NCBI RefSeq assembly: GCF_000013985.1
Contig: NC_008048.1
Coordinates: 2,604,001 to 2,668,000 of the forward strand
Direction: 5' to 3'
DNA length: 64,000 bases
DNA from: Sphingopyxis alaskensis RB2256
Lineage (GTDB): Bacteria > Pseudomonadota > Alphaproteobacteria > Sphingomonadales > Sphingomonadaceae
Notes under the pieces: model-generated
Databases searched by the model: none
Told to the model about the DNA's origin: nothing
What the model saw: the letters and a program-made list of their open reading frames with translations, nothing else
Part shown: one piece after another, positions 45,428 to 48,820 of the stretch
How the letters are laid out: the number at the start of each line of letters is the position of its first letter
Position numbering within the stretch: the stretch's first letter is position 1
Program-made: the position numbers and the translations under genes

Positions 45428-46342
45428 TCAAACTTGCCAAAGTGGCCGCTGCTGCCAGTTCGCGGGAAAACCCATCGATCGCGTATCGCCCTCGGGATGG
45501 GTCACGATGTGCGCCGCCACATCGGCAAGCCAGGTCGAGTCCGGCGCCACGGTATTGATGACGTGACCGATCATGCAGATGCCGTTGTAAAGCTTGGCGG
45601 GTGCCTGAGTGGCGTTCTGATCGATGGTCGCCTGTAGGGATTTGGGCTTTTGCGCGAGCTTCGGAGGCGTGAGGAAGCCCCGGTTCCACAGCCGGCCGTG
45701 ATGCGCGCAGATATTACGGATGTCCGTCACATGGCGGACCAAGGGCACGAGAACGGTCTCCGGAAGACCAAGGGGCCCGGCGATGCGTGTTCGAAGAGCG
45801 CGGTCTGCGAGGCTCGAATACCAGCGCGAGAGGTGACCGAATGACATCATTTCTGCGACCATCCAGACCGGCGGCAATGCTGGCAGATCGTAGTTTTGCC
45901 GATAATGCTTGATATAGGTCTCGTTCGAACGCCCCACTTCGCCAGCCAGTTTCGAGAGGCGAAGATGATAATCGGTGCGATCGCTATAAAGACTGGCGTC
46001 CAGATAGCTGTGTCCGTCGCCGAGCCCGGCGAGATGATAAGCCCAACTCCCGCGCAAGGCCACTTCGACATGCTCGGTGCCGCGCATCAAGAGGCGCCGG
46101 AGTAGCCGGTCGAAATCATAGAGGGCGGTGACGCGTTCGAATGTCGTGCCCGGAAGGAAGCGCGGTCCCGCCTGTCCCTTCGGATGTTCGAAATAAAGCC
46201 AGTAGGCACTCAGCCGGTAGTAGCTCACATGACGGAGCCACGCCTCGGCCGCCGGCTCGTCGGCAACGATCATGCCGTTTGCCCGGAGATGAGCGATTTG
46301 CTGGGTGTAAGTGAGAGTCGGTTTGGAATAGGCGCGTGACAT
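45428..46342 (-). CDS. Abi_2 (AbiD/AbiF-like) HEPN protein
   Basis: 304-residue Abi_2 protein, the family of abortive-infection proteins AbiD/AbiF. The front part has the typical HVSYYRLSAYWLYFE; the HEPN ribonuclease motif R-x4-H appears as RNICAHHGRLWNR near residue 212. Such proteins are RNA-cutting toxins that stop phage growth, and some are paired with a structured RNA. No clear ribosome site precedes the ATG at 46342. A candidate RNA with promoter and terminator lies just upstream on the same strand. Confidence 0.9.
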   Translation of the reverse strand: MSRAYSKPTLTYTQQIAHLRANGMIVADEPAAEAWLRHVSYYRLSAYWLYFEHPKGQAGPRFLPGTTFERVTALYDFDRLLRRLLMRGTEHVEVALRGSWAYHLAGLGDGHSYLDASLYSDRTDYHLRLSKLAGEVGRSNETYIKHYRQNYDLPALPPVWMVAEMMSFGHLSRWYSSLADRALRTRIAGPLGLPETVLVPLVRHVTDIRNICAHHGRLWNRGFLTPPKLAQKPKSLQATIDQNATQAPAKLYNGICMIGHVINTVAPDSTWLADVAAHIVTHPEGDTRSMGFPANWQQRPLWQV

Positions 46343-46370
46343 TGACCATCGTCATGCGTCAACGGCGCCC

Positions 46371-46431
46371 AAAATAAAAGACCCGCCCAGTGTGCATATC
46401 CTTGCGGACAGAGGCCGGGCGGGTGCGATTG
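46371..46431 (-). ncRNA. Candidate small structured RNA upstream of the Abi gene
   Basis: Minus-strand transcript of about 60 bases. A perfect 8-bp stem ACCCGCCC (46424-46417) / GGGCGGGT (46388-46381) encloses a 28-base loop that itself holds a 5-bp hairpin TGTCC-GCAA-GGATA (46410-46397). CTTTTATTTT follows at once (46380-46371), giving a clean 3' end 28 bases before the Abi start. If the transcript starts a few bases earlier, GTGGGCAT (46439-46432) could pair with ATGCACAC (46397-46390) as a pseudoknot with one mismatch. Structured RNAs have been described upstream of AbiF genes; identity with that motif is not shown. Confidence 0.55.
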
Positions 46432-46436
46432 ATGCC

Positions 46437-46465
46437 CACATAGGGTAGGCAAGCGAACAAATCAA
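46437..46465 (-). promoter_or_regulatory. Promoter of the candidate RNA
   Basis: Minus strand: -35 TTGATT (46465-46460), 17-base spacer, -10 TATGTG (46442-46437). An alternative is TTGTTA with TACCCT a few bases upstream. The AT-rich stretch stands out locally. Confidence 0.5.
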
Positions 46466-46568
46466 TAACAAGCGTTGCAGCGCAACACGAAATAGGACCC
46501 TTCCACCCCGACATCATCCGGACAAAGGAAGGCACGCCCAAAGGCCCTGCCAAGGCCGCCACTGCACA

Positions 46569-47495
46569 TCAGGCCGTCGGAATACGGGCCTCCAGTTCGG
46601 CGATGCGCTCCGAACAGATCGCATGCACCGCGCGGCCGAGCTCCTCGACATGCGCAGCGAGCCACAGCAGGTCCGCTTCGCCGATGCGATAATGTTTCGA
46701 GTAGCGGGCCTTCACATAAGCCTCTTTCAGCTTCTCGAAGCGTGAGCGATCGGCCTTCAACGCGCGGGGCCATGCGTCCACCAACCGCATGTCGATCCGT
46801 TCCGCCTGCGTTCGCAGGAACCCGAGGTTGTGCACATGCGGGGTGTAGAAGGTGCAGACCAGCAAGACGCAGTGGTACAGAAATTCGGAAGATTGGTGCA
46901 GATCGAAAGCGGCTGGCTTTAGGTAGCCCTTCTCCCGTCCCATCGCAGACAATTCGAACCGCTGCATGGCGAGGGGGAACCACTCCTCAAAATATTCCTT
47001 CGCCATCGCCAACGCCTGCTCGGGCGTCTTCGGCTTGGGCGTGTGCAATGCCTTGTCGTCATATTCGTAGAGTGCGATCCCGTCGCGCGCGACGTCCATG
47101 AAGAAATAGCGCCCATGCGCCAGCCCGTCATTCACCTCCTGCAGGGTGTGCACGATGAAATTCACCGGCGTGTGCAGCGTCTTGTCGATCGCAAGCTCGC
47201 GGGTCAGCCGGTCTTCGAGCTTGGACCAAAAGTCGATCTTGTCGGTGAGGCGCTTGTCGTTGACGATGATCAGCAAATCGAAGTCCGAGCGATAGCCCTT
47301 CGCCGTGTGCGGCTCGTCGACCCAGCCTCCGCGCGCATAACTTCCGTACAAGATGATCTTGTCGATCCGGCCCTTCTTCTTCCAGCCCATCGTCGAAAGC
47401 GCGACGGCATCTTCGAATTCTTCGAAGATGATCGCCTTTACGCGCTCGAGCTCGCGCTGCTTGTTGGCCGGAAGATGATCGAGATCGGTACGCAT
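46569..47495 (-). CDS. MNT-HEPN fusion protein
   Basis: 308-residue protein joining a minimal nucleotidyltransferase to a HEPN domain. The MNT part has LYGSYARGG near residue 50 and the paired acids SDFDLLI near residue 70; the second half is an all-helical HEPN domain (KARYSKHYRIGEADLLWLA) with a degenerate R-x-H motif. MNT/HEPN pairs are toxin-antitoxin systems in which the MNT adds nucleotides to the HEPN toxin; here both are in one chain. It lies upstream of the candidate RNA and Abi gene on the same strand. Confidence 0.88.
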   Translation of the reverse strand: MRTDLDHLPANKQRELERVKAIIFEEFEDAVALSTMGWKKKGRIDKIILYGSYARGGWVDEPHTAKGYRSDFDLLIIVNDKRLTDKIDFWSKLEDRLTRELAIDKTLHTPVNFIVHTLQEVNDGLAHGRYFFMDVARDGIALYEYDDKALHTPKPKTPEQALAMAKEYFEEWFPLAMQRFELSAMGREKGYLKPAAFDLHQSSEFLYHCVLLVCTFYTPHVHNLGFLRTQAERIDMRLVDAWPRALKADRSRFEKLKEAYVKARYSKHYRIGEADLLWLAAHVEELGRAVHAICSERIAELEARIPTA

Positions 47496-47560: not shown

Positions 47561-48502
47561 TCATGGCGCTTCGCGGATGCGGAAATCCCACACGGGGATG
47601 CCGAACGCCCGCGCCTTGTCGACGAGATTGTCCTGGATGCCGGTGCCCGAGAAGACGATGAGCCCGGCGGGCATGGCGTCGATCATGCGCTCGTTGCGCT
47701 TGAAGGGAGCCGCCTTCCTGTCGCGGTTCCAGTCGGGGCGGAAGGCCACCTGCGGCACCTTGCGGGCGTCGGCCCAGCAGGCGGCGGCACGCTCGGCACC
47801 GGTCGGCGTCGCGCCGTGGAGCAATATCATGTCGGCATGACGGGCATGAACCTTGTCGAGTGCCGACCAGATATGCCGGTGATCGTTGCACGCGGGCCCA
47901 CCGCTGAAGGCGATGCGGGTGCCCTCGGGGATCAGCGCCTTGGCCTTTTCGCGGAGGCGGCGGTCCATGAAGTCGCGGCTGTCGATTATTGCCGCGGTCA
48001 TCGCCTGATGGCGGATGCGCGACCCGGTGCGCGGGACCCACGCCTTGCGGGCGTGAATGCGATACTGTTCAGCGGCGCATTCGCGGAAAAATTCCATGGC
48101 GTCGCGCCGCTCGATCAAGGTGATGCCCTCGGCGATCGCGCGCTCGAGTTCGACCGAGCGGATTTCGCTGCCATCCTGTTCGCGCTGGAGATCTCGCTGC
48201 GCCACCTCGTTGCGGTCGAGATCGCGCTCGATCCGCGTGCCCGCGCCGTGGAAGAGATTGACGACGCCCCAGAGCAGTTCCTCAAGGTCGGGCTCGATTC
48301 TCGTGTCGACGAGGCAGCCCGCGAGTGCATCGAAGATGTCGGCAACGGCGCCGCCGGCGAGCCGGTCATCGGGAAGCGGCCGCCCGTCGGGCTCATCCTC
48401 GAACGGACGATAGCCGTAGAGCTGCATTTCCTGGAGGAGATATGCGCTGGCGCCGGGCTCGGCGGGCTCGCTGCGTTCGGAAAAGTCTGACAGGTCGCTC
48501 AT
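47561..48502 (-). CDS. DUF2493/SLOG-domain protein
   Basis: 313-residue protein. The first half is helical and charged; the last 120 residues are a YspA/DUF2493 Rossmann-like SLOG domain (RIAFSGGPACNDHRHIWSAL, then ILLHGATPTGAE and AGLIVFSGTG). SLOG domains bind nucleotide-derived ligands and occur in conflict systems. The ATG at 48502 precedes a Ser/Glu-rich head (SDLSDFSERSEPAEP). Common in sphingomonad elements; role unknown. Confidence 0.85.
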   Translation of the reverse strand: MSDLSDFSERSEPAEPGASAYLLQEMQLYGYRPFEDEPDGRPLPDDRLAGGAVADIFDALAGCLVDTRIEPDLEELLWGVVNLFHGAGTRIERDLDRNEVAQRDLQREQDGSEIRSVELERAIAEGITLIERRDAMEFFRECAAEQYRIHARKAWVPRTGSRIRHQAMTAAIIDSRDFMDRRLREKAKALIPEGTRIAFSGGPACNDHRHIWSALDKVHARHADMILLHGATPTGAERAAACWADARKVPQVAFRPDWNRDRKAAPFKRNERMIDAMPAGLIVFSGTGIQDNLVDKARAFGIPVWDFRIREAP

Positions 48503-48820
48503 GTCATGCCTCGCTTCTGGTGGCCGCGGCTCTCGCGGCCTTCGCGGCGACGCCCCCGCGGCGGCGGGTGCGGGTCGGCACCGCGCGGCACGCGCGGCCG
48601 AAGCGCCAGCGTAGGATGGCGAGGGTGCGGCTATTTTGTTTCGCGATGCAAAGGGGCGCAGCCCCGGCGGAAAATAGCCGCGCGCTCGCCATTGCGGTGC
48701 CCGGATCCGCCGCCGCAGTCGCCCCCCAGCGAAGGCCGGAGGCACGGCTGCCGGGAATGATCCAGAGGCAACCCGGTCGGACGCTTGATGAAGCGGCGCC
48801 CACCGCCGTCCGAAATCCCG
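48503..48820. other. Non-coding stretch
   Basis: 318 GC-rich bases between the toprim and DUF2493 genes; no gene supported. Should hold the DUF2493 promoter. Confidence 0.45.

Follow-up and report, generated by a model that had tools for sequence, protein, structure and literature searches.

Three elements lie in a row on the minus strand of a 64,000-nucleotide stretch of Sphingopyxis alaskensis RB2256 DNA (contig NC_008048.1, positions 2,604,001 to 2,668,000; designated here the window): a gene for a single-chain MNT-HEPN protein, a short RNA unit and a gene for an Abi_2 protein, abi. A first-pass annotation had proposed that they may act together as a combined defence system not yet described. 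The question raised by this locus is whether the elements are real and which of them belong together. All three proved to be real. They are listed below with the gene that adjoins them, in window coordinates.

45428..46342, minus strand: Abi_2/AbiF-type HEPN protein, predicted RNase toxin (open reading frame, 304 aa)
about 46371..46430, inferred ends, minus strand: abiF-type RNA of ~55-60 nt, predicted antitoxin (conservation, covariation, model R1)
46381..46424, minus strand: paired part of the RNA, ACCCGCCC ... GGGCGGGU (15 pairs over 21 sequences)
46437..46465, minus strand: predicted promoter, TTGATT (46465-46460), 17 nt, TATGTG (46442-46437) (by eye)
46569..47495, minus strand: single-chain MNT-HEPN protein, neighbour gene (open reading frame, 308 aa)
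47561..48745, minus strand: YspA/DUF2493-type backbone gene adjoining the MNT-HEPN gene (PF10686, 6.1e-28)

The abi gene product belongs to the Abi_2 family (PF07751; E 3.8e-52, 177.7 bits against a cut-off of 25.6) and was also recognised by the PADLOC AbiD model (2.3e-66). Its RNICAHH sequence, at residues 209-215, fits the HEPN RNxxxH motif, and in an alignment of 24 sequences R209, N210 and H214 were invariant and A213 and H215 nearly so. These results bore out the initial identification of an AbiF-like HEPN protein carrying this motif. The nearest solved structure was 8vz6 (E 3.6e-43, residues 6-303), which is given as a PbAbiF-RNA complex in the relevant part of a review (PMC12737573). 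By analogy with its relatives, the window Abi is predicted to be a toxin that needs the HEPN motif for its toxicity.

The RNA had been described as a short unit with its own promoter and terminator, and tests on the single sequence gave no indication of it. A scan with the sigma-70 promoter consensus found no match at the RNA site, a terminator scan found none there, the fold z-score of the window stretch was -1.09, and an Rfam search of the window RNA returned no abiF match at the gathering score or at E 10. Alone, these tests would have meant dismissal, but comparison across loci led us to judge the RNA real. Sixty-six loci with a related Abi were fetched (149 genomes of the family were searched separately), and the RNA was looked for before every Abi whose match starts within the first seven residues; Abi fragments that lack the N-terminus, such as L044 and L078, fell outside this survey. 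A frameshift near residue 43 breaks the Abi gene in three of the loci (L006, L007 and L008), and the preceding RNA is intact in all three. The 36 listed loci with an Abi identity of at least 56% represent 33 distinct ones, given that three entries are the window's own locus and that L069 falls within L009. The RNA lay directly upstream of abi in 33/33 of these, over Abi identities of 56-100%. A motif search recovered it in 34 of the 36 listed loci, L020 and L023 were recognised by eye, and by eye no RNA was seen before abi in the distant loci L061 and L062.

The RNA is sharply bounded by unconserved DNA. In ungapped pairwise comparisons of 18 sphingomonad loci, hand-chosen from the 36 listed, identity was 0.24-0.27 farther upstream and 0.43-0.55 in the promoter zone (TTGATT-17-TATNTN), rose to 0.64-0.94 within the RNA, stood at 0.81 along the T-run and fell to 0.36 beyond it. 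The T-run ends near 46371, as first annotated, with the abi ATG ~28 nt beyond it. The upper end of the span originally assigned to the RNA, 46371-46440, had to be revised because the span includes part of the -10 element (TATGTG, 46442-46437). The promoter at 46465-46437 is predicted to serve the RNA and, by read-through, abi as well.

Within these boundaries the RNA has an 8-bp closing stem, a conserved GCCUCU...AUGC core, an extra hairpin in the loop and a 3' T-run. The 15 proposed pairs were formed in 99.0% of 315 cells over 21 sequences, and compensatory changes were present at the stem ends (A-U to G-C and A-U to C-G) and in the inner hairpin (C-G to U-A). The covariation score was 0.275, compared to 0.171 (sd 0.015) when shuffled and at most 0.088 when the pairing was slid. 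This score, the number of cells paired and the number of double-change cells (21) each lay above all 500 shuffles, a control that takes no account of relatedness among the 21 sequences. Two further counts did not exceed the shuffles, namely pairs changed on both sides (4, reached in 83/500) and further pair types (10, reached in 496/500). RNAalifold placed the second helix differently, which makes this part of the RNA uncertain.

The consensus of the Rfam abiF family, RF03085, has a stem that encloses GCCUCU and AUGC, with a short loop between these two. The window RNA has the same closing stem, the same core and the same place before abi_2; it differs in a hairpin of ~12 nt in the loop, and the window copy is undetected by RF03085. 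RF03085 was run on 15 related loci: three of them, L027, L043 and L048, passed its cut-off, and the four of sphingomonad type gave no match. A model built from 21 sphingomonad RNAs, designated R1, found the RNA before Abi genes in 21/41 loci at E 0.01 or better. With the three model-building loci excluded, R1 reached this threshold in 18/38, down to ~27-33% Abi identity; the remaining 20 gave no R1 match at E 0.01, and several of them show the core by eye. Some of the RNAs that R1 found before Abi genes of distant lineages also pass RF03085, and intermediates of this kind link the window RNA to the Rfam family. On sequence grounds, the window RNA is a divergent abiF-type RNA and not a member of RF03085, because RF03085 gave no match to it at either threshold. 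According to an AbiF passage in PMC12804078, the authors of the PbAbiF work built their own AbiF covariance models, and these may already cover the window type. Tandem abiF RNAs were observed in L145 (9284-9459), L048 (2430-2619) and L053; in L145, a phage contig, the second copy lies ~100 nt on and has a different closing stem.

It is highly probable that abi and the RNA that precedes it constitute a two-part, type III-like AbiF toxin-antitoxin module, with the MNT-HEPN gene as a backbone neighbour. Both parts, their linkage, the conserved structure of the RNA and the catalytic motif were established directly. The promoter at ~46465-46437 would drive a short RNA starting near 46430, and most transcripts would end at the T-run that follows the closing stem of the RNA, this stem being the presumed terminator. 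Termination at this point would leave the RNA in excess and allow little abi mRNA by read-through. The RNA would bind the Abi dimer and block the HEPN site; infection would disturb RNA supply or binding, and the freed Abi would then cut RNA and stop the cell, and so limit the phage. For relatives, the published passages devoted to them report a toxic protein that the RNA binds and neutralises, transcription that ends prematurely, and the structure 8VZ6 (PMC12373285, PMC12737573). The pairing of AbiF-type Abi_2 proteins with structured RNAs, stated in the first-pass annotation, was confirmed by the upstream RNA in all 33 distinct loci, by its covariation and by these same passages, and the link of AbiF systems to Cas13 is likewise found in the AbiF sections of published work (PMC12373285, PMC12737573, PMC12948488). 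Tandem antitoxin repeats, a criterion for type III systems, were not seen, as one RNA copy lies before abi and one occurs in the whole genome; most other abi loci displayed also show one copy. The single copy is the reason for the label type III-like rather than type III.

AbiF_Cd-RCd22 of the C. difficile prophage phi027, as presented in the portions of PMC12373285 that concern it, resembles the window module in its Abi_2 protein with a HEPN RNxxxH motif and in its abiF-motif RNA, which lies between promoter and gene with termination before the gene. It carries two motif copies whereas the window has one, and it is located in a prophage lysis module whereas the window copy is in a plasmid/ICE-type setting. 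The window RNA further differs from RCd22 in its extra loop hairpin, in giving no RF03085 match and in that the closing stem itself precedes the T-run. PbAbiF-AbiFr (8VZ6; PMC12737573, in the part on this structure) has a protein related to the window Abi over nearly its full length.

The MNT-HEPN protein matched Polbeta in Pfam (2.6e-7), and its HEPN domain was matched at 0.0012 (19.4 bits, under the Pfam cut-off of 22). The HEPN half matched the solved structure 4nqf at 4.5e-28. Together with the open reading frame, these matches upheld its description as a single-chain MNT-HEPN protein. In 13 aligned sequences the family keeps the nucleotidyltransferase residues but lacks an invariant Rx4-6H histidine. 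A 2013 survey, in its section on such fusions, describes HEPN domains fused to MNT as typically without RNase residues (PMC3710099). The protein has MNT and HEPN domains in common with the type VII toxin-antitoxin system MntA-HepT; it differs from this system in being one fused chain without a conserved Rx4-6H, and the MntA model scored it at 17.7 bits against a cut-off of 60.

The combined system first suggested would require the MNT-HEPN protein to modify or control the RNA-Abi pair, and the distribution of the genes makes this a far-fetched reading. In the window the elements stand side by side in one orientation, and MNT-HEPN lies directly upstream of abi in 5/66 related loci (L002, L003, L006, L007 and L008) and on plasmid pMC4; three more of the 66 carry it elsewhere in the fetched stretch, and 59/66 reach at least 1300 nt upstream. 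However, each of these adjacencies, pMC4 included, involves an Abi at least 98% identical to that of the window, and L004 and L005, with an Abi 91% identical, have a different upstream region. The DUF2493 gene follows toprim in the same order on pMC4 and on the Blastomonas plasmid pBSY18_2, and on the latter the order continues with MNT-HEPN, a regulator and metal-efflux genes, abi being absent. An Abi match was found in 14 of the 149 family genomes, an MNT-HEPN match in 30 and both in 3, compared to 14 x 30 / 149 = 2.8 expected if the two were independent. In addition, the RNA sits between the two genes with its own promoter zone. As a rule the protein genes are thus apart, which the first-pass annotation had named as grounds for rejection, and they co-occur at the level of chance; a combined MNT-HEPN/RNA/Abi system is not supported. 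The arrangement on pBSY18_2, the restricted adjacency, the co-occurrence counts and the missing histidine together indicate that MNT-HEPN looks like a backbone neighbour of abi, not part of the module, and that its protein likely lacks RNase activity. A second MNT-HEPN gene, 76% identical, is present in the window's genome (G000:C2:2735177-2736088), and several family genomes have more than one copy.

A further alternative is that the RNA is merely an intrinsic attenuator of abi, with no antitoxin role in trans. Its position in the abi 5' leader and its end in a conserved T-run would suit an attenuator, yet the loop core GCCUCU...AUGC and an ACAC are conserved beyond the needs of a terminator, phage records that lack Abi_2 contain a core of this kind (see below), and RCd22 of C. 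difficile works both in cis and in trans (PMC12373285, in the passages on this RNA); a role confined to cis is thus improbable. A different question is that of purpose, since a module serving mainly the maintenance (addiction) of mobile elements, not phage defence, would be compatible with the type III-like mechanism. Related Abi proteins occur in 411 plasmid records and the window copy lies within a plasmid/ICE-type backbone, and maintenance as the main purpose is conceivable, if on the unlikely side; it does not exclude defence, and the lactococcal AbiF is a phage-resistance gene according to the AbiF passages of PMC12373285.

Searches beyond the Abi loci recovered further RNAs of this type. 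Over the 149 family genomes R1 matched 14 places, seven of them with an adjoining Abi. Four matches (L128, L129, L131 and L132) look like ordinary terminators by eye and one (L125) looks degraded, and these were not counted as abiF RNAs; L124 and L126, with no adjoining Abi, look like real RNAs. A first pattern for viral contigs, which contained the sphingomonad closing stem, gave no matches. Later patterns, which omit most or all of the closing stem, found 78 contigs with an alpha-type core, 110 with a second core and 66 with a third pattern. A closing helix of at least 6 pairs was possible in 71/78 alpha-core and 75/110 second-core contigs, with 24 and 23 different closing-stem arms, respectively, and in 918/5432 and 1733/10655 combinations when 5' and 3' sides were taken from RNAs with different arms. 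RF03085, run on 50 records, matched 43 over its cut-off and 47 at E 0.01, the three unmatched ones being of the sphingomonad type. The helix counts, set against the swapped arms, and the RF03085 matches indicate that the phage RNAs are real and that their stems look kept by selection. The third-pattern contigs are probably mostly chance, as the helix was possible in 10 of the 66. Two groups of viral contigs that match the sphingomonad-type pattern (L369, L323 and L326; L336, L337, L346 and L376) have near-identical flanks but poor stems and are probably chance as well. The exact alpha-type core was present in one of 398 Pseudomonadota genomes, too rare to be set against the phages, and a search of named phages with the window RNA gave no convincing match (3 records, E 2 to 7).

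Most of the phage RNAs are solitary. PF07751 was found in 5/107 whole phage records, not all of which are independent (3/50, 2/45 and 0/12; 0/19 for the INPHARED records among them). The 107 are a selection. From the alpha-core set came 46/78 contigs, each 15 kb or longer and with 5 or more pairs possible in the helix; from the second-core set came 34/110, of which 33 have a possible helix of this size and L227 has 3 pairs; the third pattern supplied 8/66. The other 19 are INPHARED records chosen out of BLAST lists of 53 and 74; several of these have weak BLAST E-values, and one is an unverified scaffold. The IMG/VR records are possibly fragments or integrated prophages, several contigs share near-identical RNAs, and the contigs L281 and L287 equal in length Thibault and LittleE, two phages already counted within the 19. 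For the downstream gene, helices of at least 6 pairs (at least 5 for the third pattern) were taken and 11 third-pattern contigs were dropped by hand, which left 154 RNAs. Where at least 700 nt lay downstream, an ORF followed in 133/134 (77 clusters; 5 were Abi). The ORF taken was the first one of 60 aa or more called mechanically, and some of these may not be genes. In L190, Abi lies ~200 nt past the RNA. Otherwise the phage RNAs are without a fixed downstream partner among these predicted ORFs. RF03085 gave 9 matches in the 398 Pseudomonadota genomes, 3 of them over the cut-off, and an Abi homologue adjoined 7/9 (2/3 of those over the cut-off); the phage and genome samplings differ in method, so the contrast between solitary and paired RNAs is only indicative. 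One genomic match over the cut-off (L401, in G510) has no adjoining Abi, and by eye its downstream ORF resembles a HigA-type antitoxin.

The RF03085 cut-off was passed by 15 of the 19 INPHARED records, which are as follows.

Aeromonas phages PZL-Ah8, PT2 and T7-Ah: RNA between connector and scaffold genes; over the cut-off
Rhizobium phage RHEph21 and Roseobacter phage CRP-143: RNA before the capsid gene; over the cut-off
Acinetobacter phage Acj61, Salicola phage CGphi29, Synechococcus phages S-SZBM1 and S-SRM01: over the cut-off
Mycobacteriophages Thibault, Beem, Dove, LittleE, Douge and Lolly9: over the cut-off
Rhizobium phage Pasto: RNA before the capsid gene; below the cut-off
Arthrobacter phage Mimi, Pseudanabaena phage Pan2 and an unverified faecal scaffold: below the cut-off

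Several of the phage RNAs sit in tRNA clusters, and T7-like phages carry others next to their capsid genes. Each of the three Aeromonas phages has a CTATAGGGA element that starts 16-24 nt before the matched stretch, and one other copy about 1.0-1.25 kb on; on the basis of the consensus, we take this element to be a promoter of the phage RNA polymerase. No CTATAGGGA was present in the fetched stretch of the Rhizobium and Roseobacter phages. The closing stem of T7-Ah and PT2 differs from that of PZL-Ah8 by a compensating change, and a simple stem test gave at least 5 pairs in 16 of the 19 records, with L412, L418 and L419 needing a bulge or mismatch. The faecal scaffold (L396, MT836731.1) carries its abiF-like RNA (28.6 bits, below the cut-off) ~300 nt before a DUF3800-VIII RNA of 76.7 bits (2501-2546 and 2852-2915), and in L420 a DUF3800-IV match below the cut-off follows ~1 kb after the abiF RNA; several defence-linked RNAs may thus be clustered in phages.

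RNAs of the window's own type were found in viral contigs L377 and L379 and at genome locus L124 (R1 scores of 58.7, 48.5 and 61.0 bits). All three adjoin endolysin-like genes, L379 also an internal virion protein gene, and a PF07751 search of the L377 and L379 records found no Abi_2. Among weaker sphingomonad-type members, Abi_2 is present in L370, L381 and L353, with none in L371, L321 and L357. L124 belongs to a genome of the window's genus (G122) and combines the window-type loop core with a different closing stem in which both sides are changed. With the window Abi as query, this genome gave a single broken fragment, away from L124.

We lean, by a narrow measure, toward the view that solitary abiF RNAs serve a wide variety of phages as counter-defence, with the sphingomonad-type copies acting as decoys for the subfamily of the window. 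Phage-made abiF RNA would bind the host AbiF and keep it silent. It would be transcribed in the T7-like Aeromonas phages from the likely phage promoter, and elsewhere within tRNA clusters. Such RNAs would resemble the Racrs (RNA anti-CRISPRs), as these are characterised in the passages of PMC10651486 that define them, and the pseudo-ToxI of phage PhiTE, which acts against ToxN (PMC5449768, in the section on this phage), in being solitary RNAs by which a phage imitates the RNA component of a defence system; they would differ from both in their target, which would be AbiF. The Racr paper reports, in its passage on CRISPR types, solitary repeats for all types except type VI (Cas13), and the term 'AbiF' is absent from it (PMC10651486). 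That abiF RNA occurs in phage genomes is already known, and the AbiF-silencing role is the prediction made here. An abiF RNA has been noted in cyanophage S-CREM1, with mention of three phage genomes in Rfam (PMC9964418); the passage calls it an sRNA and makes no tie to escape from AbiF. The terms 'solitary', 'orphan' and 'counter-defense' are absent from PMC12373285, and the AbiF passages of PMC12948488 and PMC12804078 contain nothing on phage RNAs directed against AbiF. No claim of phage abiF RNA as counter-defence against AbiF was found in literature titles and the openings of abstracts, a set without the 2017 motif paper and the 2025 PbAbiF paper.

The module of the window represents an alphaproteobacterial branch of AbiF whose RNA has an extra hairpin and goes undetected by the Rfam model in its current form. 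The evolutionary passages of PMC12737573 treat AbiF as the ancestor of Cas13, and RNA variants that still travel with the protein therefore reveal the fixed part of the RNA. The phage side of the abiF RNAs outweighs the module itself in importance: if the counter-defence reading is true, a broad class of RNA counter-defence would already lie within sequenced phages, at least one of which, S-CREM1, has its RNA annotated as abiF.
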